A stretch of 64,000 bases of DNA. Origin: Cloacibacillus sp. An23 (lineage in GTDB: Bacteria; Synergistota; Synergistia; Synergistales; Synergistaceae). Every line of letters starts with the position of its first letter. The first letter of the stretch is position 1. The translations under genes and the position numbers were made by a program. Below the pieces are notes generated by a model. The model searched no databases and was not told the DNA's origin. It saw only the letters and a program-made list of their open reading frames with translations. Where the stretch lies: assembly GCF_002159945.1 (NCBI RefSeq), contig NZ_NFJQ01000008.1, positions 62,001 to 126,000 of the forward strand, written 5' to 3'. Positions 1,391 to 63,449 of this stretch are shown here, piece after piece.

Positions 1391-1975
1391 TCAGCGGGGC
1401 ACCAGCACGGTCAGCGGCGTCTTGTGCAGCCCGTCGGCCTTTATCGCGATTACGTCGAAGGGGACGGGGCATTTTCTTTCGTGGGGGAAGGTAAATGTCA
1501 GCCGCTTCGCGTCTTCGCGGCCGTCGTACGACGCCGAGGCCAGGAAGGCCTTCGCCATGCCGTTTTTAGGGAAGTCCGTGCCGGAGGCGGTTTTTTTCAG
1601 CGCGAACTCTGCTTTCTGCGGGCTGCGCGAGTTCCAGTTGGTCTCGGCGCGGGCGAGCACGGAGAAGCCGTCGCCCTCAGGCGAGAGCGTCACAGAGACG
1701 ACGTTGTGCCCCGGCATCTTCATGTGGTCTATGACGAAGACGGTCTCGCCGTTCTCGCGGATGTAGGCCGCGAGCGGCGGCTCGTCGAGCGCCACGCATG
1801 CCGCGAAAGCGGCGCTCACGGCGAGCGCCTCGCACTGCGCGAGCTCGCGCCGCTCGTATTCTCCTTTAGTGACTATGCGCCAGCCTATGAATACGAACGA
1901 GGCCAGCACTCCGGCGAATATCAGGTATTTTGCGATTTTCTGGGCTATTTCAGACGCGCGTTCTCTCATGCGCAT
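1391..1975 (-). CDS. Hypothetical protein with one N-terminal membrane anchor
   Basis: Not recognised. The 194-residue product has a short basic start, one hydrophobic segment at about residues 17-33 (YLIFAGVLASFVFIGW), and a mainly polar remainder of about 150 residues with no visible motif, so it is probably a membrane-anchored extracytoplasmic protein. It converges on the AbrB gene and diverges from the ClC gene. A perfect TATAAT (1976-1981) touches the first ATG; the second in-frame ATG (codon at 1967-1969) sits where transcription would begin, so the mRNA may be leaderless and the protein two residues shorter. Confidence 0.6.
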   Translation of the reverse strand: MRMRERASEIAQKIAKYLIFAGVLASFVFIGWRIVTKGEYERRELAQCEALAVSAAFAACVALDEPPLAAYIRENGETVFVIDHMKMPGHNVVSVTLSPEGDGFSVLARAETNWNSRSPQKAEFALKKTASGTDFPKNGMAKAFLASASYDGREDAKRLTFTFPHERKCPVPFDVIAIKADGLHKTPLTVLVPR

Positions 1976-2028
1976 ATTATACAGTATTTAATGGCCGGAT
2001 ATGCTAGAATAAAATCCGGTGATGAAGA

Positions 2029-3456
2029 ATGGACGGGACGGGAAATAAAGAAAACGGGGAGGCGGTGCGCATAGACGTGGAGCAGCCGGACGGCGCGGAC
2101 ATCGTGCGCGACGAGGTGTGGCTCATCTGCGCCGTCGCGAAATGGGTGATAATCGCGATAGTCACCGGGCTCGCCGTCGGCCTGGTCGCGGGCGGCTTTC
2201 TGCTCGCGCTGCGCTGGAGCATGGACAAGGCCGCGGCGCTCGGACGCTTCCGCCATCTTCTGCTCTTTCCTGGGCTGTTTGTCAGCTATTTCCTCGTGCG
2301 GCTGCTCGCGCCGCAGTCCGCGGGGCACGGTACCGAGGCCGTCATAGACGCTATACACAACAGACGGCGCACCGTGATAGACGTGAAGGCCGTGCCGGTC
2401 AAGATAGCCGCTACGATAGCGACTATCGCGTCGGGCGGCTCCGTAGGCATCGAGGGGCCATGCGCGCAGATCGGCTCCGGCGTCTCATACGTCCTCGGCA
2501 AAATCTTCGATCTCGACGAATCCGACCTGAAAAAAATTATAATCTGCGGCATCGCGGCGGGCTTTTGCGCCGTCTTCAGCACTCCAGTCACAGGCGCGAT
2601 ATTCGCCGTCGAGGTGCTCTTCGTCGGACAGATATTCTACGACGTTCTTTTTCCGTCGCTGATAAGCGGCATCGTCGGCTATTTCACGGCCGCCGCGATG
2701 GGCGCGGGCCACGCGTCCGGCGTGACCGTCACGGTGCCCGAGCTCGGCCCGTGGGCCCTCGCCTCTTCGCTCGCCGCAGGGATATTCTTCGGCGTTATTG
2801 CGATAGCGGACATCGAGGGCATCCACCTGGCTAAAAAAGCGTTCGCGCGCTTCGGCGTTACGGGGTGGAAGCGTCCGCTCGCGGGCGCGGTCCTGCTGCT
2901 CGCCATAGGGATGCTGTTCGGCGGCGATTTCCTCGGCCTCGGCAGCGACGCTATATGGGCGATGGTGGCGGGGGACGAAAGCCTGCCTCTCGGCTTCGCC
3001 GTCAAAATAGCCGCGATGGGCATAACGCTGGCTGCGGGAGGCTGCGGCGGCGAAATTACTCCGACATTCTTCATCGGCGCCTCCGCCGGCCTGCTCTTCG
3101 CCGCCGTCTTCGGCCTCGACCCGTCCTTCTGCGCCGCGCTCGGCGTCTGCTCCGTCCTCGCCGCATCGACGAACACGCCGATATCCGGCACGCTCTTCGC
3201 AATGGAGCTCTTCGGCGCGCAGATAGCCGCCTTCGCTGGCGTCGCCTGCGCCGTATCATACCTAGTGGTCGGACACAGAAGCCTCTACCCGACTCAGGTG
3301 CTGCTTTCTCCTAAATCCCGAGCATTCTCCATAAGGCGCACGGAGCGCGGCGAACGCCTCGTAAGGCGTTTCGACAGCATATCGCTGCGCCGCATCGCCA
3401 AATTCTACGCGGAACGCATAATAAGCGGAATAATCGAAAGGAGGCGCGCGAAATAA
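2029..3456 (+). CDS. ClC-type chloride channel/transporter
   Basis: A 475-residue polytopic protein of the voltage-gated chloride channel family. The filter and gate motif GSVGIEGP is present with the gating glutamate (near residue 145). The late filter motif reads GGEITP in place of the usual GxFxP, and the early GSGIP loop is replaced by AGHGTE, a variant seen in distant bacterial ClCs. Whether it is a channel or a proton antiporter cannot be told. The C-terminal 60 residues are basic and cytoplasmic, with no CBS domains. The stop is 1 base from the start of the next gene, so the two are probably co-transcribed. Confidence 0.88.
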   Translation: MDGTGNKENGEAVRIDVEQPDGADIVRDEVWLICAVAKWVIIAIVTGLAVGLVAGGFLLALRWSMDKAAALGRFRHLLLFPGLFVSYFLVRLLAPQSAGHGTEAVIDAIHNRRRTVIDVKAVPVKIAATIATIASGGSVGIEGPCAQIGSGVSYVLGKIFDLDESDLKKIIICGIAAGFCAVFSTPVTGAIFAVEVLFVGQIFYDVLFPSLISGIVGYFTAAAMGAGHASGVTVTVPELGPWALASSLAAGIFFGVIAIADIEGIHLAKKAFARFGVTGWKRPLAGAVLLLAIGMLFGGDFLGLGSDAIWAMVAGDESLPLGFAVKIAAMGITLAAGGCGGEITPTFFIGASAGLLFAAVFGLDPSFCAALGVCSVLAASTNTPISGTLFAMELFGAQIAAFAGVACAVSYLVVGHRSLYPTQVLLSPKSRAFSIRRTERGERLVRRFDSISLRRIAKFYAERIISGIIERRRAK

Positions 3457-3457
3457 G

Positions 3458-3718
3458 ATGCGCAAAACTCTGAACATGATCCTTACGGCGCTCGCGGCGG
3501 CCGTAATGATGGCGTGGATATGGAAATTCTTCGGCCCGGGCGGAGCGGAGGCGCGGCGCGCGGGAGGCGCGCTGCTCGGCGGCGCGGGCACGAGCTTCGG
3601 CGGGCTGCTCTGGATATCCGTCTCGGTCGTCTGCCTCGGTTACCTGCTATGGCGGTTCATGAGCTGGTTCTTCTGGCACAAATACTTCCGCGAAGACCCG
3701 CCCGACAGGGAAGATTAA
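3458..3718 (+). CDS. Small two-helix membrane protein
   Basis: Not recognised. The 86-residue product has one hydrophobic helix at about residues 5-24 and another at about 49-70 (LLWISVSVVCLGYLLWRFMSWF), separated by a Gly/Ala-rich stretch, and a charged C-terminus (EDPPDRED). Its ATG lies 1 base after the ClC stop, which implies translational coupling and a possible accessory role for that transporter (inference). Confidence 0.6.
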   Translation: MRKTLNMILTALAAAVMMAWIWKFFGPGGAEARRAGGALLGGAGTSFGGLLWISVSVVCLGYLLWRFMSWFFWHKYFREDPPDRED

Positions 3719-3745
3719 AAAAGCCCGCCCCGTTAGGAGGCGAGC
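3717..3745 (-). terminator. Terminator of DUF3343 gene, overlapping its 3' end
   Basis: On the minus strand GCTCGCC and GGCGGGC form a 7-bp stem (one G-T pair) followed by TTTTTT. The left arm lies inside the last codons of the DUF3343 gene. Confidence 0.7.
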
Positions 3746-3954
3746 TCGTGGTACTCCGCGACCTCTATAGCCTTGTCCGCGACGACGGCCTCCACCTTCC
3801 CGCGGTCGCCGCACGGATAACTGCACGCCAGCCCGCAGCTCGCGGAAATCTGGCGCGGCACCGGGATTATCTTCACGTTGAGCCCGGCGGCGCGGCAGGC
3901 CTTCTCGAAGAAAAGCGCCATGTGCGTCGTGTCGAAAGTTGCGAGACATTCCAT
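3733..3954 (-). CDS. DUF3343 protein (putative Se/S carrier-like)
   Basis: A 73-residue protein. The start MECLATFDTTHMAL and the cysteine pair in SCGLACSYPCG match the DUF3343 family, small proteins proposed to carry selenium or sulfur and often found in selenium-using anaerobes. I chose the ATG at 3954 over the upstream one at 4002 because GGAGGG precedes it at good spacing and the family starts there. The presence of two UGA-encoded selenoproteins in the same window fits a selenium link, but the function is not proven for the family. Confidence 0.75.
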   Translation of the reverse strand: MECLATFDTTHMALFFEKACRAAGLNVKIIPVPRQISASCGLACSYPCGDRGKVEAVVADKAIEVAEYHELAS

Positions 3955-4185
3955 TCCTGCATCCCTCCGCGTAAAAAACTCGCATCTACATATTTTTACC
4001 ACATCTTTCCGTTATTATAAACAACGGGGAGACGCTATTGTGCAGGAATACAAAGCGCGGCGGCGTCCGCGCGCCCCGCTCCGCGTTCGGCACGTGGACG
4101 TAAAGACGAAAACGGGGTAAAATACTCGGGTCAGTCAGAGAGGGGATAGCGGATTTATCCTCAAACTCAAGAGGAGGAAACTTGA

Positions 4186-4710: not shown

Positions 4711-5208
4711 ATGGCAGAAAACATCAACATAAGCGCAGTACAGATAGACATACCCGAAGAGGCCAACGTCATAGTGGGGCAGAGCCACTTCATCAAAACA
4801 GTCGAAGACATATACGAGGCGATGGCGACAGCCGCGCCCTGCATAGAATTCGGCGTCGCATTCTGCGAGGCGTCGGGCGACTGCCTCATACGCCACGACG
4901 GCAACAACGCGGAAATGGAAAAATGCGCGATAGAAAACGCGCAGAAAATGAACGCGGGGCATACATTCATCATCGTCATGCGCAAAGGCTACCCCATCAA
5001 CGTGCTGGGCAGAATAAAAGACGTGCAGGAAGTCTGCCGCATATTCGCCGCCACCGCCAACCCGCTTCAGGTACTCGTCGCCGAAAGCGCGCAGGGCCGC
5101 GGCGTCATAGGCGTCATCGACGGCTTCCCCACCAAGGGCGTCGAAGACGAAAAAGGCGCGGAGTGGCGCGTGTCGCTGCTGCGCGACATAATCGGGTACA
5201 AGAGATAA
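4711..5208 (+). CDS. Adenosine-specific kinase family protein (COG1839)
   Basis: A 165-residue protein that matches the small, cytosolic adenosine-specific kinase family (former DUF355) along its length, with conserved stretches [35 protein letters not shown] and [17 protein letters not shown]. Structural members bind adenosine or AMP, and the family is common in archaea and anaerobic bacteria; the cellular role is not settled. A GGAGG site lies 8 bases before the ATG. It is monocistronic, set off by a terminator upstream and a long intergenic stretch downstream. Confidence 0.85.
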
Positions 5209-7460: not shown

Positions 7461-7823
7461 ATGACTTTGCAAGAGCTGGCATCTTTGCTGGATGCCAAAA
7501 ACGTCTCTACGTCGGATGATCTTAACAGCATTATTGTCAACAACGCCTATGCGTGCGACCTGATGAGCGACGTACTGGCGTTCTGCACGCCGGGGTCGCT
7601 GCTTCTCACGGGGCTGACGAACGTCCAGATCGTGCGCACGGCGCAGATGCTGGACATTCCCGCCATAGTCTTCGTGCGCGGCAAGAGGCCGCTCGAGGAG
7701 ACGATTCAGCTCGCCGGTGAGAACGGCATCCCGATACTTCTGACGCGGTACAGTATGTTCGAAGCCTGCGGCATTTTGTTCGCGAAGGGCATGAAGCCCT
7801 GCCACGACATTCAGGAGATTTAG
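7461..7823 (+). CDS. DRTGG-domain protein 1
   Basis: A 120-residue protein with the DRTGG-type fold: TLQELASLLDAKNVS at the start, a central VVNNAYACDLMSDVLAF-like segment, then GLTNVQIVRTAQMLDIPAIVFVRGK and a GIPILLTRYSMFE end. DRTGG domains are small presumed ligand- or nucleotide-sensing modules, also found next to CBS domains. I chose the ATG at 7461, preceded by AGGAGG, over longer upstream frames. It is first of five closely spaced genes (7461-10699); in Thermotoga a similar group sits beside hydrogenase genes. Confidence 0.8.
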   Translation: MTLQELASLLDAKNVSTSDDLNSIIVNNAYACDLMSDVLAFCTPGSLLLTGLTNVQIVRTAQMLDIPAIVFVRGKRPLEETIQLAGENGIPILLTRYSMFEACGILFAKGMKPCHDIQEI

Positions 7824-7826
7824 GCC

Positions 7827-8258
7827 ATGGGAGCCCCTGTCTGTCTCGAATACAGAATTGAGGGCAACGATTTTATGGTCGCGGGCGCGGCCTCGAACAA
7901 TATAAAAAACACCCTCAAAATGCTCGGCATAAACTCCGGTATCTGCCGCAGGGTTGCGATAATCACCTACGAGGCGGAGATAAATCTCGTCATACACGCG
8001 GGAGGGGGAGTGCTGAAAGCGGATATTTTCGAAGACCACGTCGTGCTTATCGCGGAGGACGAAGGCCCCGGGATAGCGGACATAGATAAAGCGATGACGG
8101 AAGGCTTCACGACGGCGAGCGACCAGGCCAGAGAGATGGGCTTCGGTGCCGGTATGGGGCTGCCGAATATAAAACGCAACAGCGACGTTTTCAATATAGA
8201 ATCCGAGGTCGGGAAAGGTACGACTCTGACCTGTACCGTCTTTTTCAATAAAAATTAG
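7827..8258 (+). CDS. RsbW-like ATP-binding regulatory protein (anti-sigma-type kinase fold)
   Basis: A 143-residue GHKL ATPase of the RsbW/SpoIIAB group. The N box is EAEINLVIHAGGG, the G1 box DEGPGIADIDKAM, the G2 region GFGAGMGLPNIKR and the end GKGTTLTCTVFF. RsbW-type proteins phosphorylate an anti-sigma antagonist or bind a sigma factor; no partner (STAS protein or sigma factor) is encoded nearby, so the partner may be one of the module's own DRTGG or Fe-S proteins (inference). It starts 3 bases after the DRTGG protein ends. Confidence 0.82.
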   Translation: MGAPVCLEYRIEGNDFMVAGAASNNIKNTLKMLGINSGICRRVAIITYEAEINLVIHAGGGVLKADIFEDHVVLIAEDEGPGIADIDKAMTEGFTTASDQAREMGFGAGMGLPNIKRNSDVFNIESEVGKGTTLTCTVFFNKN

Positions 8259-8278
8259 ACGCGGGAGGAGGGAGTCAC

Positions 8279-9595
8279 ATGCTCCACAGCGTTAAGATCT
8301 CAAGAGCGGCCTGCCAGGGATGCGTGAACTGTATCCGCGTATGCCCGACCGAGGCCATCCGCATCGTAGACGGAGAGATAAGCATTATGGAGGAGCTCTG
8401 CATCGACTGCGGCGAATGTCTGCGTTCGTGCCACAGGCAGGCGCTCGGCATAGAGGAGGACGACTGGAACTCCGTCAAGGAGGCCGAGTGCGTCCCGCTT
8501 GTCACTGACCCAGTTTTTTTCTCACAGTTCAGCCATTACACCGACCCGCCGATGCTCGAGGCCGTCCTCCTGTCTATGGGGCTGACGCCGCTTATAGACG
8601 AGATCGAAGAGGCTTTCGACCTGGCCGCCGCCGCTACCGCTCAGATGATAGCGCGCACGGCGCGTTCGTCTCTGCCGCTGATATCCTGCTACTGCCCGTC
8701 GGCGCTGCGGCTTATCCAGGCTCGCTTCCCCGAGCTTCTGTCGCGCGTCGTCCCAGTCTGCTCTCCGCTCGAGATAGCGGCCGACTTATGGAAGATGCGC
8801 ACGAGCAGCTCTGTTCCGGTGACTCTGCTCGCGCCCTGCTCGTCTAAAATATCGATGGTTCGCGAGCCGCTGGGCCGCGAACATTCGCCGCTTGACGCGG
8901 CCGTCACGGTGCGCCGCGTCGCGCGCAGCATAATGGCTAGCAACGTATCCGCCTCGCACGACCACCCGAGGAAGGAGCGCGCGAGCCGCTGGGTGCAGTG
9001 GGCGCGCAGGGGCGGAGAGTCGAAGCACATACAGGCGTTTTCCGATAAGAAGCTGACGATGCTCGCCGTCTCCGGCATGAGGAACACGATAGACGTGCTG
9101 CAGGAGCTGGAGCTCGGGCGGCTGCGCTCCGTGGACTTCATCGAGTGCCGCACATGCGACACGGGCTGCGTAGGCGGCGTCGGCACCGCGGATTCGCGCT
9201 TCCTCGCGAGCCTAAGGCTCAACAGCATACAGACGGACTGGAACATCACGCCGCAGAACCTGCGCCGCGCCGAAGAGCTGAACGCGATGGACTTCTGGGC
9301 CACTACGAAGGAATACTCGCCGAGGCCGAGGCTGCCGCTCTCCAACAACGTCGCCGAGGCGATGGTGAAGCTCCAGCAGATGAAAGAAATATATTCCGGG
9401 CTGCCGCACATCGACTGCGGATCGTGCGGACGCCCGTCGTGCCAGGCTATGGCGGAAGAAATAGTGAGAGGGCACGGCTCTGTGACGGACTGCATCTTCA
9501 AGCTGCGCGAGGGGATAGCCTCGCTCGCGAACAAGATAGTAGTCCTCTCCGAGTCGCAGCCTCAGACTCTTAAAAGAAGGAGTGGAACGAAATGA
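8279..9595 (+). CDS. Hydrogenase-like Fe-S sensor protein (HydS-like, probably non-catalytic)
   Basis: A 438-residue multidomain protein. Residues 1-60 hold two [4Fe-4S] motifs (CQGCVNCIRVCP and CIDCGECLRSC). The middle is an iron-hydrogenase large-subunit C-terminal domain. The end has a further cluster motif, CGSCGRPSCQAM. All four H-cluster cysteine positions appear kept: C139 in SCYCPS, C187 in APCSSK, and C293/C297 in CDTGC. The proton-relay cysteine of true hydrogenases (first C of TSCCP) is Tyr138 here, which suggests sensing and not turnover, as proposed for Thermotoga HydS-type proteins. The gene overlaps the next one by 4 bases (ATGA). Confidence 0.82.
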   Translation: MLHSVKISRAACQGCVNCIRVCPTEAIRIVDGEISIMEELCIDCGECLRSCHRQALGIEEDDWNSVKEAECVPLVTDPVFFSQFSHYTDPPMLEAVLLSMGLTPLIDEIEEAFDLAAAATAQMIARTARSSLPLISCYCPSALRLIQARFPELLSRVVPVCSPLEIAADLWKMRTSSSVPVTLLAPCSSKISMVREPLGREHSPLDAAVTVRRVARSIMASNVSASHDHPRKERASRWVQWARRGGESKHIQAFSDKKLTMLAVSGMRNTIDVLQELELGRLRSVDFIECRTCDTGCVGGVGTADSRFLASLRLNSIQTDWNITPQNLRRAEELNAMDFWATTKEYSPRPRLPLSNNVAEAMVKLQQMKEIYSGLPHIDCGSCGRPSCQAMAEEIVRGHGSVTDCIFKLREGIASLANKIVVLSESQPQTLKRRSGTK

Positions 9596-9927
9596 CCGTA
9601 AAGGAAGTATGCGAGGCGCTCGGCGGCGAGATACAGTGCGAGGGCGACGGCGCGCGTGAGATAACCGGAGCTACGGCGGGCGACCTGCTGAGCTTCGTGA
9701 TGGGGACGGCCCTCGAGGGGGCCGCGTGGGTGACGGTGCAGGCGCACCTCAACGTCGCCGCCGTCGCCGTGTTGAAAGACCTCCCGCTCATAATCATAGC
9801 TGCGGGGCGCAAAGCTCCCGACGACCTCATAGAGCGCTGCAAGACGGAGAACATCACGATAATTTCCGTGCCGGATACACTTTACGGGACGTGCGTGAAG
9901 CTCGCGGGGCTGGGACTGAAGGGATAA
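9592..9927 (+). CDS. DRTGG-domain protein 2
   Basis: A 111-residue protein of the same DRTGG type as the first gene of the module: TVKEVCEALGGEIQCEG, then EITGATAGDLLSFVMG, then LPLIIIAAGRKAPDDLIERC and NITIISVPDTLYG. Its ATG overlaps the stop of the hydrogenase-like gene (ATGA), a sign of translational coupling and a fixed ratio of the two products. The pairing of a DRTGG protein with each sensor component suggests that these small domains read the state of the Fe-S protein or bind a nucleotide; neither is shown. Confidence 0.8.
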   Translation: MTVKEVCEALGGEIQCEGDGAREITGATAGDLLSFVMGTALEGAAWVTVQAHLNVAAVAVLKDLPLIIIAAGRKAPDDLIERCKTENITIISVPDTLYGTCVKLAGLGLKG

Positions 9928-9934
9928 CCGCGTC

Positions 9935-10699
9935 TTGCTGAAGCCCTTCTGGGTAGACCTCCACATACACACGCTGCTTTCGCCGTGCGGCGAGCTCGAG
10001 ATGGGCGCGCCGGAAATCGTCGAGCAGGCGCGCGGGGCCGGCCTCGACGTGATAGGCGTAGCCGACCACAACACATGCGAGAACTATCCGGGAATAGCCG
10101 GGGCGGCGCAGAACGGCGAGCGCCCCGGCTGTCCCGTCGTGCTTCCGTGCATCGAGGCGCAGAGCGCGGAGGACATACACACGCTCTGCGTTTTCCCGGA
10201 GTATCCGCTCGCGCTCGAATTTAAGAACTGGCTGTGGAAACGCGTACGCCCGATAAAAAACGACGTCGAGCACTTCGGCTATCAGATAGTCGTCGATGCC
10301 GGGAACGGCATCGTCAAAGAAGAAGAAATACTGCTGATACAGGGCGCGGGCTACGAGGTAGACCAGATAGTGGAGAAGGCGCAGTCGCTAGGCGGCCTAG
10401 CGATACTCGCGCACGTAGACCGTCCGGCCTTCTCGTACACAGCGGCGCTCGGCCCGATGCCCGAGGACTATCCCGCGGACGGGTTCGAACTCTCGCGCCG
10501 CCTCAACTCCGACGAGGCGCGCCTTTGGCGCGAGCGTTACCCAGGGCGCGCCTTCATACGCTCGTCGGACTCTCACACGCTCGACACCATGACGCGCGGC
10601 AACTGCACCAAAATGATGCTCGAAGCGCCGACCTTCGACGAAATACGCATGGCGCTCCGCGGCGAAGGCGGGCGGCGCATATCGTGGCCCTGGGGGTAA
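9935..10699 (+). CDS. PHP-domain metal-dependent phosphoesterase
   Basis: A 254-residue PHP-family protein starting at TTG (9935), preceded by AAGGGA. Metal-binding motifs are WVDLHIHTLLSPCG (motif I), GVADHN (II), LPCIEAQ with E instead of the usual H/E cluster (III), AHVDRP and SSDSHTLD at the end. PHP phosphoesterases cleave small phosphate esters such as histidinol phosphate or 3'-phosphoadenosine compounds. As the last member of the sensory module it could remove a phosphate added by the RsbW-like kinase or act on a nucleotide signal (inference). radA follows after 8 bases. Confidence 0.82.
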   Translation: MLKPFWVDLHIHTLLSPCGELEMGAPEIVEQARGAGLDVIGVADHNTCENYPGIAGAAQNGERPGCPVVLPCIEAQSAEDIHTLCVFPEYPLALEFKNWLWKRVRPIKNDVEHFGYQIVVDAGNGIVKEEEILLIQGAGYEVDQIVEKAQSLGGLAILAHVDRPAFSYTAALGPMPEDYPADGFELSRRLNSDEARLWRERYPGRAFIRSSDSHTLDTMTRGNCTKMMLEAPTFDEIRMALRGEGGRRISWPWG

Positions 10700-58620: not shown

Positions 58621-59277
58621 ATGACGTCGGGCGAAGCAGCTAAACCTCTTAGTATATCGAGGCAGTCTCTTCAGCGTATGCCGGTCTATCTTGAATTGCT
58701 GAAAAAAATAAAGGCGGATGGCAAAAGCCACGTCTCCGCCGCTTTCATAGCTTCGGAGCTCGGGCTGCATCCCGTGCAGGTGCGGAAGGATCTGGCCTCC
58801 GTCTCGAGCGTTGACGGAAACCCACGCATCGGCTTCGCCCTCGACGGGCTCATAGACGATATGGCGGAGTTCCTCGGCTGCAACAACGCGCACGAGGCGG
58901 TCGTCGCCGGTGTCGGCAATCTCGGGCGCGCTCTGCTTTCGTATAAAAATTTCGACCGCTACGGCTTGGCGGTCATCGCGGGCTTCGACACCTCGCGCGA
59001 CGTAATCGGCACGACGGTGGCGGGCAAGGAGATATTCGACGCGTCGCGCATAGCGGAACTGTGCGCGCGCCTCGGCGTGCATATCGGGATTATAACCGTC
59101 CCGGCGGAGGCGGCGCAGAGCACGTGCGACGCTATGATCGCCGGCGGCGTCCTCGCCGTGTGGAACTTCGCGCCGGTACACCTTTCGGTGCCGGATGGCG
59201 TCATCGTCTCGAATGAGAATCTCGCGGCGTCGTTCGCGGCGCTTTCAAGCCGTCTGAGTCAGGCGAATAAAAAGTAG
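58621..59277 (+). CDS. rex: Redox-sensing transcriptional repressor Rex
   Basis: A 218-residue Rex. The winged-helix N-terminus reads ISRQSLQRMPVYLELLKKIKADGKSHVSAAFIASELGLHPVQVRKDLA; the NADH-binding Rossmann domain has VVAGVGNLGRALLSY and FDTSRDVIG; the C-terminal helix swaps between subunits. It senses the NADH/NAD ratio and usually represses fermentation and hydrogenase genes. It lies directly upstream of hydCBA, its likely target. AGTGAAGGGGT precedes the ATG. Confidence 0.95.
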   Translation: MTSGEAAKPLSISRQSLQRMPVYLELLKKIKADGKSHVSAAFIASELGLHPVQVRKDLASVSSVDGNPRIGFALDGLIDDMAEFLGCNNAHEAVVAGVGNLGRALLSYKNFDRYGLAVIAGFDTSRDVIGTTVAGKEIFDASRIAELCARLGVHIGIITVPAEAAQSTCDAMIAGGVLAVWNFAPVHLSVPDGVIVSNENLAASFAALSSRLSQANKK

Positions 59278-59305
59278 GCGGGCGCGTCAGGCATCCGCCT
59301 TTTTT
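59276..59305 (+). terminator. Terminator after rex
   Basis: AGGCGG (59276-59281) and CCGCCT (59295-59300) pair across a 13-base loop, followed by TTTTT. Confidence 0.7.
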
Positions 59306-59385
59306 GATACTATGTTATAGTCCGGCGCGTTGTGTGGAGGCGCCGCGACTCCGTTCAATCAACCGATTAAGAGAGAGGGATGTGT

Positions 59386-59865
59386 ATGGTGACGGAGAGT
59401 TTTGACTACGCGCCCATCGACAGGATAGTCGAAGAGCACGACGCGCAGGCTACCGCGGTCATTGCGATACTCCAGGATATTCAGGAGCATTACCGCTATC
59501 TGCCGCGTGAGATCTTCCCCTATCTTTCAAAGAAGCTCGGAATGCCGGAGGCGCGCATCTACAGCGTCGCGACCTTCTACGAAAATTTCTCGCTGAATCC
59601 TAAGGGGAAGTTCGTCATCAAGGTCTGCAACGGCACCGCGTGCCACGTCAGGAATTCCATTCCGATACTCGAAAGGCTGCGCTCGGAGCTCGGCCTTTCC
59701 GAGAACAAGGTGACGACGGACGACCTGGGCTTCACCGTCGAGACGGTGTCGTGTCTCGGAGCGTGTGGACTCGCCCCAGTGCTTACCGTCAACGACGAGG
59801 TGCATCCGTCCATGACGCCCGACAAGGCCGCCGAACTCGTGGCGGCTCTCAAGAAGGAGCTTTAG
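59386..59865 (+). CDS. hydC: HydC/NuoE-like [2Fe-2S] subunit of electron-bifurcating hydrogenase
   Basis: A 159-residue thioredoxin-fold [2Fe-2S] protein of the NuoE family. The cluster ligands are the cysteines in KVCNGTACHVR and SCLGACGLAPVL (C-x4-C and C-x3-C). The N-terminal helical part includes QEHYRYLPREIFPYLSKKLGMPEARIYSVATFYENFS. I chose ATG 59386, with GAGGG upstream; ATG 59380 is 6 bases earlier. It is the smallest subunit of the HydABC complex and stands 1 base before hydB. Confidence 0.93.
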   Translation: MVTESFDYAPIDRIVEEHDAQATAVIAILQDIQEHYRYLPREIFPYLSKKLGMPEARIYSVATFYENFSLNPKGKFVIKVCNGTACHVRNSIPILERLRSELGLSENKVTTDDLGFTVETVSCLGACGLAPVLTVNDEVHPSMTPDKAAELVAALKKEL

Positions 59866-59866
59866 C

Positions 59867-61744
59867 ATGATTATAAAGACGCGCGAAGAGCTGCGCGAGC
59901 TCAGGAAGGAATACGCGGAAAGCCTCGCCGGCGAAAAGAAGAAGATCTTGATATGCGCGGGTACCGGCTGCATATCGAGCGGTTCGCTCGTGATTTACGA
60001 CGAGCTTAAAAAAATAATGGAGGAGCGCGGACTCAGGGTCGAGGTCGAGCTCGCCGAGGAGCCGCACGACGGCTCCGTCGGCCTTAAGAAATCCGGCTGC
60101 CACGGGTTCTGCGAGATGGGGCCGCTCGTCCGCATCGAGCCGCAGGGCTGGCTCTACGTCAAGGTGAAGCCAGCCGACTGCGGTGAGATCGTCGAAAAGA
60201 CGATAATCGGCGGCGAACATATTGAGCGCCTGGCCTATTCCAAGCACGGAGAAATTTTCAAAAGGCAGGAAGAGATACCCTTCTACAAGAAACAGACCCG
60301 CCGCGTGCTGGAGCACTGCGGGCATATAGACGCGACCTCGATAAAGGAATATCTCGGCATCGGCGGATACAGCGCCTTTGAAAAAGCGCTCTTCGATATG
60401 AGCGGCGACGAGATCGTGCAGATGATTTCCGACTCGAACCTTCGCGGGCGCGGCGGCGGCGGCTTCCCGACCGGGCGCAAGTGGAGCCAGGTGCGCGCGC
60501 AGAAGGCCGGGCCTAAATATATCGTCTGCAACGGCGACGAGGGAGACCCGGGCGCGTTCATGGACCGCAGCATAATGGAGGGCGACCCGCACAAGATGCT
60601 CGAAGGCATGATGATAGCGGGCGTCGCCTGCGGAGCGTCCGAAGGCTACATCTACGTGCGCGCCGAGTACCCGATGGCGGTCTCGCGTCTGCGAACCGCG
60701 ATAGCCCAGGCGGAGGAGCTGGGACTGCTCGGAGACAACATAATGGGCAGCGGTTTCTCGTTCCGCATACACATCAACCGCGGGGCCGGGGCCTTCGTCT
60801 GCGGCGAGGGCAGCGCGCTGACAGCCTCGATAGAGGGCAAGCGCGGAATGCCGCGCGTGAAGCCGCCGCGCACGGTCGAGCACGGGCTTTTCGACAGCCC
60901 GACTGTGCTGAACAACGTCGAGACCTTCGCCAACGTCCCGCTCATAATCAGCAACGGCGTCGAGTGGTACAAGTCGCTCGGCCCGGACAAGAGCCCGGGC
61001 ACGAAGGCTTTCGCCCTGACCGGCAACATAGAGAACACGGGGCTCATCGAGGTGCCGATGGGCACGACGCTGCGCGAGGTCGTCTTCGACGTCGGCGGCG
61101 GTATGCGCGGCGGCGCCGGCTTCAAGGCCGTGCAGATAGGCGGGCCGTCCGGCGGCTGCCTCACTGAGAAAGACCTGGATCTGCCGCTCGACTTTGACTC
61201 GCTTACAGCCGCGGGCGCGATGATAGGCTCCGGTGGCCTAGTCGTCATGGACTCCAAGACCTGCATGGTCGAGGTGGCGCGCTTCTTCATGAACTTCACG
61301 CAGAACGAGTCCTGCGGAAAATGCGTCCCCTGCCGCGGCGGCACGAAGCAGATGCTCGCGATACTGGAGCGCATCGTCGCGGGCGAGGGGCGCGACGGCG
61401 ACATAGAGCTGCTGCTCGAGCTCGCCGACATGATATCGCACACCGCGCTCTGCGGCCTCGGCAAATCCGCCGCGCTCCCGGTCGTCAGCACGATAAAGAA
61501 CTTCCGCGAGGAATACGAGGCGCACATCTATAAAAAATACTGCCCGGTCGGGGCCTGTTCGAAGCTCAAGAGCTTCTCGATAGACCCGGCGCTCTGCAAG
61601 GGCTGCTCGAAATGCGCTCGCGGATGTCCCGTCGGGGCGATCAGCGGCGAGATAAAGAAGCCCTTCGTCATAGACAGGGACAAATGCATAAAATGCGGCG
61701 CCTGCGTGACGGCCTGCCCGTTCCACGCGGTGAAGGAGGGATAG
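59867..61744 (+). CDS. hydB: HydB/NuoF-like FMN- and NADH-binding subunit
   Basis: A 625-residue protein in three parts. Residues 1-125: thioredoxin-like [2Fe-2S] domain (CAGTGCISSG and KSGCHGFCEMGP). About 150-540: NuoF core with the Gly-rich NADH site RGRGGGGFPTGRKW, the FMN region NGDEGDPGAFMDR and the [4Fe-4S] motif ESCGKCVPCRGG. End: two ferredoxin-type [4Fe-4S] motifs (CKGCSKCARGCPVGAI and CIKCGACVTACPF). In Thermotoga-type HydABC this subunit oxidises or reduces NADH while coupling to ferredoxin. hydA starts 4 bases after its stop. Confidence 0.95.
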   Translation: MIIKTREELRELRKEYAESLAGEKKKILICAGTGCISSGSLVIYDELKKIMEERGLRVEVELAEEPHDGSVGLKKSGCHGFCEMGPLVRIEPQGWLYVKVKPADCGEIVEKTIIGGEHIERLAYSKHGEIFKRQEEIPFYKKQTRRVLEHCGHIDATSIKEYLGIGGYSAFEKALFDMSGDEIVQMISDSNLRGRGGGGFPTGRKWSQVRAQKAGPKYIVCNGDEGDPGAFMDRSIMEGDPHKMLEGMMIAGVACGASEGYIYVRAEYPMAVSRLRTAIAQAEELGLLGDNIMGSGFSFRIHINRGAGAFVCGEGSALTASIEGKRGMPRVKPPRTVEHGLFDSPTVLNNVETFANVPLIISNGVEWYKSLGPDKSPGTKAFALTGNIENTGLIEVPMGTTLREVVFDVGGGMRGGAGFKAVQIGGPSGGCLTEKDLDLPLDFDSLTAAGAMIGSGGLVVMDSKTCMVEVARFFMNFTQNESCGKCVPCRGGTKQMLAILERIVAGEGRDGDIELLLELADMISHTALCGLGKSAALPVVSTIKNFREEYEAHIYKKYCPVGACSKLKSFSIDPALCKGCSKCARGCPVGAISGEIKKPFVIDRDKCIKCGACVTACPFHAVKEG

Positions 61745-61748
61745 CCCG

Positions 61749-63449
61749 ATGGAACAGAAGAAATACATGACGATAGACGGGATACCCGTCGAGATAGACG
61801 GCGAGAAAAACATCCTCGAGGTCATACGCAAAGCCGGCATACAGCTCCCGACCTTCTGCTACTACTCGGAGCTCTCCATCTACGGCGCCTGCCGCATGTG
61901 CATGGTCGAGAACAAATGGGGCGGCCTCGACGCCGCCTGCTCCACGCCGCCGAAAGAGGGCATGGAGATATGGACGAACACCGAGCGGCTGCGCAAGTAC
62001 CGCCGGATGATACTCGAGCTGCTGCTCGCCGACCACTGCCGCGACTGCACGACCTGCCACAACAACGGCAAATGCAAGCTGCAGGACCTCGCGATGCGCT
62101 TCAACATCGAGGGCGTGCGCTTCCCGAACGGCGCTGCGGAGCCGAGGCGAGACGACTCGTCGCTCTGCATCTCGCGCGACCACAACAAGTGCATACTCTG
62201 CGGCGACTGCGTGAGGATGTGCAACGAGATACAGCACGTCGGAGCGATAGACTTCGCGAACCGCGGCTCGAAGATGACGATAAGCACCGTCTTCGACATT
62301 CCGATAGCGGAAAGCTGCTGCGTCGGCTGCGGCCAGTGCGCCGCCGTCTGCCCGACCGGAGCGATAGTCGTCAAGAACGACACTGCGAAGGTCTGGAAGG
62401 CGCTCGACGACAAAAAGGCGCGCGTCTCAGTACAGATAGCGCCCGCCGTGCGCGTCGCGATAGGCGAGGAGTTCGGCATGGGCGGCGGCGAGAACGCGAT
62501 GGGCCGCATCGTCGCGGCGCTGCGCCGCATGGGCTTCAACGAAGTCTTCGACACTTCTACGGGAGCCGACCTCACGGTGCTCGAGGAGTCCGCCGAATTC
62601 CTCGAGAAGCTCGCGAAGGGCGAGACGGACGAAATGCCGCTCTTCACCTCCTGCTGCCCCGCGTGGGTGAGCTACTGCGAGAAGAACGAGCCCGAGTTCG
62701 CTGAGTACCTTTCGACCTGCCGCTCGCCGATGCAGATGTTCGCTTCCGTAATAAAGGAGCACCACAAACATTCGCCGCGCAAGCACTACCACGTCGCCGT
62801 CATGCCCTGCACCGCGAAGAAGGGCGAGGCCGCGCGCGAGGAATTCCGCAGCGAACTCGGCCCCGACACGGACTTCGTGATAACGACGCAGGAGCTGATA
62901 CAGATGATAAAAGAATCCGGCATCGTATTCGACGAACTCGAGCCCGAGGCAGTTGACATGCCGTTCGGCACGATGAGCGGAGCCGGCGTCATCTTCGGCG
63001 TCACGGGCGGCGTCACTGAGGCCGTGCTGCGCCGCATAACCTCCGACAAATCGCCCGCCGCGCTGCGCGCGATAGCCTTCAAGGGCGAGCGCGGAAACGA
63101 GGGCATAAAAGAGGCCGAAGTGGCCTACGGGGACAAAACGCTGAAAATAGCGGTAGTCAGCGGCCTCGGCAACGCGCACAAGCTGCTCGAGCGCATAAAG
63201 GCCGGCGAGCATTACGACTTCGTCGAGGTCATGGCCTGCCCCGGCGGCTGCGTCTGCGGCGCCGGGCAGCCGTTCGCGCTGCGCGGTGAAAAGGAGCTGC
63301 GCGGCAAGGGCCTCTACTCCGCCGACAGGATGTCGAGCATCAAGCGCTCCGAGGAAAACCCGCTCATGATATCGCTCTACAACGGACTGCTCAAGGGCAA
63401 AGTACACGAGCTGCTGCACGTCCGTTACGGCTCGAAGGAGGCTGAGTAG
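61749..63449 (+). CDS. hydA: [FeFe]-hydrogenase catalytic subunit HydA
   Basis: A 566-residue NuoG-like hydrogenase. The N-terminus has a [2Fe-2S] domain (CYYSELSIYGACRMCMVEN) and a His/Cys3 [4Fe-4S] motif (HCRDCTTCHNNGKC), then two ferredoxin clusters (CILCGDCVRMC and CCVGCGQCAAVCP). The H-cluster domain keeps every ligand: C303 in TSCCPAW, C354 in MPCTAKK, C497 and C501 in MACPGGCVCGAGQP; the proton-relay C302 is present. It makes hydrogen from ferredoxin plus NADH in complex with HydB and HydC. The HydEFG maturases are not in this window. Confidence 0.96.
   Translation: MEQKKYMTIDGIPVEIDGEKNILEVIRKAGIQLPTFCYYSELSIYGACRMCMVENKWGGLDAACSTPPKEGMEIWTNTERLRKYRRMILELLLADHCRDCTTCHNNGKCKLQDLAMRFNIEGVRFPNGAAEPRRDDSSLCISRDHNKCILCGDCVRMCNEIQHVGAIDFANRGSKMTISTVFDIPIAESCCVGCGQCAAVCPTGAIVVKNDTAKVWKALDDKKARVSVQIAPAVRVAIGEEFGMGGGENAMGRIVAALRRMGFNEVFDTSTGADLTVLEESAEFLEKLAKGETDEMPLFTSCCPAWVSYCEKNEPEFAEYLSTCRSPMQMFASVIKEHHKHSPRKHYHVAVMPCTAKKGEAAREEFRSELGPDTDFVITTQELIQMIKESGIVFDELEPEAVDMPFGTMSGAGVIFGVTGGVTEAVLRRITSDKSPAALRAIAFKGERGNEGIKEAEVAYGDKTLKIAVVSGLGNAHKLLERIKAGEHYDFVEVMACPGGCVCGAGQPFALRGEKELRGKGLYSADRMSSIKRSEENPLMISLYNGLLKGKVHELLHVRYGSKEAE

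Follow-up and report, generated by a model that had tools for sequence, protein, structure and literature searches.

In a window of 64,000 nucleotides from Cloacibacillus sp. An23 (the whole stretch analysed; contig NZ_NFJQ01000008.1 of assembly GCF_002159945.1, positions 62,001 to 126,000), belonging to a Synergistota genome of 2.9 Mb that is 99% complete, five open reading frames (7461-10699, + strand, with gaps of -4 to +20 bp) form a module in the order D1-KIN-HLP-D2-PHP: a DRTGG-domain protein, a SpoIIAB/RsbW-like ATPase, a hydrogenase-like iron-sulphur (Fe-S) protein, a second DRTGG-domain protein and a PHP-type phosphoesterase. We propose, at a probability of roughly 0.4, that HLP is a group-D-like HydS descendant whose hydrogenase domain (H-domain) is [4Fe-4S]-only, and that it passes the redox state of ferredoxin/NADH on to a SpoIIAB-type switch linked to electron-bifurcating oxidoreductases. 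HLP is probably an H-cluster-free variant of group-D-like HydS. Because half of its carriers keep it without any gene for H-cluster assembly, what it senses is probably the electron balance of the cell, by way of ordinary iron-sulphur clusters, and not hydrogen. For group D [FeFe]-hydrogenases a role in H2 sensing has been proposed, and the module provides concrete candidate signalling partners, namely the SpoIIAB-like ATPase, the two DRTGG proteins, the PHP enzyme and, genome-wide, the small ATPase HisK.

HLP and the H-cluster assembly genes

HLP orthologues, taken as sequences with about 40% identity or more, were found in 73 of the 146 Synergistota genomes searched, and in 35 of these 73 none of the maturases HydE, HydF and HydG was found. 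Gaps in assembly were rejected as the cause, as complete and single-contig genomes are among those affected and three independent markers are missing; so was oversight through strict thresholds, since a renewed search of the 35 genomes, with HydF relaxed to 1e-28 and HydE at 1e-40, found neither, with four control genomes positive. Most of the 35 also have no other Fe_hyd_lg_C protein. HydF occurs in 83 of the 146 genomes and HydG in 68, HLP and HydF are unassociated when counted by genus (p = 0.40), and g30, a large genus, is mostly equipped with HydF, HydG and hydrogenases yet lacks HLP. The independence of HLP from H-cluster assembly is well supported, and the module is kept where the cluster cannot be made by the known route. 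Separately, HydF was seen without HydG at the thresholds used in G028, G087, G099, G129, G132 and other genomes, some of them near complete, which may reflect divergent or partial H-cluster assembly or gaps in the assemblies.

The protein consists of two N-terminal [4Fe-4S] motifs, the H-domain and a C-terminal Cx2Cx4Cx16C motif, with no PAS domain. Across 44 homologues the four H-cluster cysteines picked out by the initial annotation of the window (139, 187, 293 and 297) are invariant, as is Tyr138, also listed there, which takes the position of CpI Cys299. Twelve further cysteines (12, 15, 18, 22, 41, 44, 47, 51, 380, 383, 388 and 405) are likewise invariant, making 16 in all, together with Glu247, Glu289 and Glu393; Asp379 and Asp404 are kept in 43 of the 44, position 394 is Asp or Glu, and position 185, that of Met353, is Ala in 23 sequences, Ser in 16, Val in 3 and Thr in 2. 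The CpI Met497 position (Arg291) is Arg in every Synergistota HLP sequence compared. The 16 cysteines, Tyr138 and Arg291 are invariant both in the 18 sequences from HydEFG-bearing genomes and in the 26 from HydEFG-free genomes, and the H-domain is therefore equally constrained without maturation. Both classes share the pocket residues Tyr138 and Arg291, and the most economical reading of the sequences is therefore that HLP would use a diiron subsite in neither. The window genome has HydE, HydF and HydG, as well as two strong-scoring Fe_hyd_lg_C proteins and one HydS-like protein, and because the maturases are there, loading of HLP with an H-cluster in this species is unlikely rather than impossible.

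The AlphaFold model of HLP (predicted local distance difference test, pLDDT, 88.9) aligns in VIA-align to the [FeFe]-hydrogenase CbA5H with Z = 32.6 and 3.4 Å over 339 residues, a comparison that took in residues 1-351 and barely covered the C-terminal cluster domain. In the tree, which has long branches and from which TamHydS is absent, HLP and its Parabacteroides and Subdoligranulum homologues stand apart from groups A and C (98/97). An ordinary catalytic hydrogenase was considered and rejected: HLP lacks the proton-relay Cys and scores 101 bits with the group B1 model TIGR04105 (cut-off 450) and 47 with the group A model TIGR02512 (cut-off 406).

The HydS-type resemblance noted at the outset holds, the group D domain plan and group D glutamates being kept (PMC10407848, PMC13104023). 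The accompanying proposal that an H-cluster is the sensing site and H2 the signal is not supported, given the many carriers without maturases or any other Fe_hyd_lg_C protein, the Arg at the Met497 position, and the way the module tracks HisK and adjoins bifurcating modules whose third partner is no [FeFe] hydrogenase (see below). HLP could be a true H-cluster H2 sensor of the group D HydS type where HydEFG exists, having elsewhere lost the diiron subsite and been re-used; we consider this unlikely, even with all three maturases in the window genome. It would account for the group D features kept in HLP, Glu247 and Glu289 included (PMC10407848), for Lys190 being unvarying only in HydEFG-bearing genomes, and it has a precedent in TamHydS, which can receive an H-cluster (PMC8163306). 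However, Tyr138 and Arg291 are the same in both classes, no residue was found to mark a functional shift except Lys190 in some of the HydEFG-free sequences, many genera (g30, for instance) have HydEFG but no HLP, and where HLP has Arg at the Met497 position TamHydS has Leu and TmHydS Ser (PMC8163306).

Also seen were HydS proteins resembling group C, about 580 residues long, in G097 and G021 (Table 1) with further matches in G018 and G019. In G097 and G021 the gene adjoins one for a SpoIIE-type phosphatase, as in R. albus, and such proteins are found even where HydE, HydF and HydG are all missing, which makes a second instance of a sensory H-domain retained in the absence of maturases.

HisK and the NuoEF-linked oxidoreductases

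HisK is a second small ATPase which, like HydD, we named by gene position relative to the NiFe-HydABCSL operon of Acetomicrobium mobile (PMC8880783, PMC9304861). Of the 73 genomes with HLP 70 have it, as do 6 of the 73 without HLP; by genus, 30 of 30 HLP genera have it as against 4 of 22 others (p = 1.7e-10), counts that remain affected by shared ancestry above the genus. Nine loci, all from HydEFG-free genomes, have the module followed directly by NuoE-HisK-HydD, and by NuoF too where the stretch reaches. Farther downstream, in the loci read that far, lie a NuoG-like subunit and the small and large subunits of a [NiFe]-hydrogenase (G008, G142 and G136) or a formate dehydrogenase (G139). A bifurcating complex downstream of the module can therefore be of the [NiFe] or the formate-dehydrogenase kind. 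The Subdoligranulum record has a divergent neighbouring operon that reads NuoE-HisK-HydD-NuoF-HydA. The outgroup genome G001 lacks HLP and has KIN fused to a CBS pair, with D1, D2, PHP, NuoE, HisK, HydD and NuoF together. Since this CBS pair replaces HLP, KIN appears to take interchangeable sensor inputs, and the common denominator of the module is the NAD-linked bifurcating NuoEF core, neither H2 nor the H-cluster.

The linkage of HLP to HydD, HisK and NuoEF would also suit an Fe-S carrier, scaffold or electron-transfer partner of the bifurcating enzymes, with the ATPase, DRTGG and PHP proteins serving assembly. Such a protein would resemble Nar1, a hydrogenase-like Fe-S protein of cluster assembly (PMC12621388), and Feng et al. 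assume a role in maturation and/or regulation for HydD, HydP and HisK (PMC8880783). We find this improbable, as HLP and HisK persist away from any bifurcating operon in many genomes, and the CBS pair-KIN fusion in the place of HLP in G001 is more in keeping with a sensor input than with an assembly factor. It is highly doubtful that the partner of the module is instead nucleotide or DNA metabolism, with redox only a modulator, though radA comes immediately after the module in several family f1 loci, a PF04008 gene lies upstream in many loci, and the input in G001 is a CBS pair, a type of domain that typically binds adenosine nucleotides. Adjacency to radA is limited to part of the phylum, while HLP and HisK co-occur and the NuoE-HisK-HydD(-NuoF) linkage, direct in the nine Synergistota loci and divergent in Subdoligranulum, is found in G001 as well.

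Our preferred reading, an H-cluster-free HLP acting on bifurcating oxidoreductases, has evidence to contend with on both of its parts. The group D relative TamHydS takes up a synthetic diiron subsite and catalyses H2 turnover (PMC8163306). HLP keeps Glu289 and also Glu247, the latter matched, by the GGE motif and the spacing seen in the Parabacteroides homologue, to TamHydS E252, which was modelled near the azadithiolate. Lys190, the counterpart of CpI Lys358, is unchanged in 18 of 18 sequences from HydEFG-bearing genomes and Arg or Met in 10 of 26 from HydEFG-free genomes, mostly of one clade, a pattern from which some maturation-tied constraint on HLP may be suspected. As to the oxidoreductases, the module of the window genome has no adjoining bifurcating operon and HisK is alone on another contig, and the co-occurrence with HisK carries the weight of common descent mentioned above.

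HisK stands alone, away from the module, in other genomes besides this one. In L079, L104 and L115 (G087, G023 and G025) it lies apart from NuoEF, and the next gene codes for a membrane protein, about 270 residues long, that by eye is formate/nitrite transporter-like. The window also holds an NAD-linked [FeFe]-hydrogenase operon in which a Rex-type repressor gene immediately precedes the genes for NuoE, a 625-aa NuoF and a 566-aa HydA of group A, with no HisK or HydD between its genes.

Parts and spread of the module

The tight order of DRTGG, RsbW-like, hydrogenase-like, DRTGG and PHP genes described in the initial annotation was confirmed by the open reading frames and by conserved loci, and its view of them as a signalling unit is in keeping with the conservation of the module, the SpoIIAB/RsbW-type ATPase beside HLP and a PHP metal site that looks intact. 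Order and strand of the five genes are shared by 41 of the 43 Synergistota loci read, the exceptions being L074, with no D2 or PHP nearby, and L087, which is cut by the contig end. Records named Parabacteroides distasonis and Subdoligranulum variabile carry these five genes too, sequences outside Synergistota being few and all from plasmid records. An order arisen by chance is ruled out by the 41 of 43 loci and the two records of other phyla. The P. distasonis 'plasmid' with the module (L088, NZ_OY725779.1) looks like a piece of chromosome mislabelled as a plasmid, since gyrA and a Clp ATPase gene are on the same record. A scan of genome contigs with HLP as query returned only five close Synergistota loci, and one of viral contigs gave no match. 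The open-licence literature searched yielded no account of the five-gene module or its HydEFG-free carriers, which is weak evidence of novelty, no match for TM1421 or for RsbW together with [FeFe] hydrogenase and, among the papers listed for DRTGG, none containing the term.

The closest solved chains to KIN are those of the anti-sigma F factor SpoIIAB, and its ATP-binding boxes are intact, with E49, N53, D78, G80, G82, G107, G109 and G111 conserved in 46 sequences. No STAS antagonist or sigma factor lies within the five-gene operon, the rest of the genome not having been searched for them. D1 has a conserved motif DLMSDVLA (D33-A40; 46 sequences) and D2 a conserved motif GDLLS (G30-S34; 45 sequences); in each motif, DLMSDVL in D1 and GDLLS in D2, a conserved Ser (S36 and S34, respectively) is the candidate site for the action of KIN. 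The Pfam scores of D2 and PHP fall under their cut-offs (Table 1), but both calls are supported by orthologues, the place of D2 in the operon being conserved along with its motif, and the outgroup orthologue of PHP clearing the cut-off at 35.3 bits. The PHP profile matches EndoQ and PHP phosphoesterases of known structure, and none of the metal-ligand positions H10, H12, H45, E74, H82, H160, D212 and H214 varies among 33 sequences.

Table 1. Location of the module genes and of other features discussed; positions refer to the window unless a locus is given.
Feature	Position	Strand	Description
D1	7461-7823	+	DRTGG-domain protein, 120 aa; Pfam DRTGG 26.3 bits
KIN	7827-8258	+	SpoIIAB/RsbW-like ATPase, 143 aa; Pfam HATPase_c 36.1
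HLP	8279-9595	+	Hydrogenase-like Fe-S protein, 438 aa; Pfam Fer4 dicluster, Fe_hyd_lg_C 78.1, FeS PF04060 43.4
D2	9592-9927	+	Second DRTGG-domain protein, 111 aa, start overlapping HLP end by 4 bp; Pfam DRTGG 20.5 bits (cut-off 25.2)
PHP	9935-10699	+	PHP-type metal-dependent phosphoesterase, 254 aa, TTG start; Pfam PHP 17.9 bits (cut-off 26.4)
CBS pair-KIN fusion	L122 (G001) 9511-10464	-	Beside two NuoE/NuoF sets and [NiFe]-hydrogenase genes
Group-C-like HydS	L135 (G097) 1578-3329	-	
Group-C-like HydS	L136 (G021) 2118-3857	-	
Se_S_carrier protein	3733-4002	-	PF11823, 80.7 bits
PF04008 gene	4711-5208	+	Adenosine-specific kinase family, 240 bits
Glycine-reductase-type subunit	18652-about 19970	+	In-frame UGA
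Rex-preceded operon	58621-63449	+	Rex-type repressor, NuoE, NuoF, HydA

Among the neighbouring genes, radA starts 8 bp after PHP in the window, and the PF04008 gene upstream of the module is at times found adjoining D1 in other HLP loci. Farther away, the glycine-reductase-type subunit, which we take to be GrdB-like, has an in-frame UGA in LTST-U-GTSTRCGST that is likely a selenocysteine codon; a Se_S_carrier protein is also encoded in the window.

Proposed mechanism and known systems

In the mechanism we propose, the H-domain of HLP would most likely hold only a [4Fe-4S] cluster on C139, C187, C293 and C297 and no diiron subsite, and electrons from ferredoxin or a NuoEF partner would set the redox state of the HLP clusters. 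The two N-terminal clusters and the C-terminal one, with the H-domain, would then read ferredoxin/NADH reduction and not H2. In TamHydS the C-terminal cluster does not respond to H2 (PMC13104023), which makes a direct line from H2 to that cluster less plausible for the HLP family. A redox-driven conformation of HLP may gate KIN, which would probably act on the DRTGG proteins by partner switching or phosphorylation, with PHP the likely reversing phosphoesterase. The output, judging by linkage and co-occurrence, would adjust the NuoEF/HisK/HydD oxidoreductases, whether [FeFe]-, [NiFe]- or formate-dehydrogenase-linked.

We extend this only tentatively to the whole bacterial family, in which the H-domain would have turned into a [4Fe-4S]-only sensor and the SpoIIAB-like/DRTGG/PHP relay would be a general regulator of flavin-based bifurcating enzymes, be their third substrate H2 or formate; if so, H2 sensing by group D HydS would be a special case or a misreading. 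The module would also be a candidate regulator of the ferredoxin/NADH balance in fermenting anaerobes, accessible in HydEFG-free species, where H-cluster-based H2 sensing is excluded.

The closest known protein to HLP is the group D (M2e) HydS of Thermoanaerobacter mathranii, TamHydS (PMC8163306, PMC10407848, PMC13104023), which has the same domain order and no PAS domain, and whose E252, E289, D378, D403, E392 and D393 have counterparts in HLP. The two differ at the Cys299 position, Ala in TamHydS and Tyr in HLP, and at the Met497 position, Leu and Arg respectively, and HLP lacks the group D combination of Ala at the Cys299 position with Ser or Thr at that of Met353. Unlike group D TamHydS, the HLP family is kept in genomes without HydEFG, and an H-cluster in HLP is at most putative: the four cysteines are present, but 35 of the 73 carrier genomes lack all three maturases. 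The group C (M2f) HydS proteins, TmHydS of Thermotoga maritima and HydS of R. albus, resemble HLP in carrying clusters at both termini and in their putative role as sensors, and R. albus HydS adjoins a SpoIIE phosphatase, a switch-type partner as in the HLP module. However, group C HydS has a PAS domain and the SpoIIE phosphatase partner, HLP has neither, and the two are separate in the tree.

The NiFe-HydABCSL operon of Acetomicrobium mobile has HisK-HydD between HydC/NuoE and HydB/NuoF, as here; in the portions of PMC8880783 and PMC9304861 available to us HisK and HydD are treated as accessory genes, and no mention of the D1-KIN-HLP-D2-PHP module was found. Eukaryotic Nar1 (CIAO3/IOP1) is likewise hydrogenase-like, with the cluster cysteines kept and no hydrogenase activity (PMC12621388), but it belongs to cytosolic Fe-S assembly, whereas HLP is bacterial, has a third cluster motif at the C-terminus and lies in an operon with a kinase, DRTGG proteins and PHP. 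Finally, KIN shares with the SpoIIAB/RsbW anti-sigma kinases the GHKL ATPase fold and the ATP-binding boxes, and differs from those systems in that its operon holds DRTGG proteins and a PHP enzyme where they have a STAS antagonist and a sigma factor.

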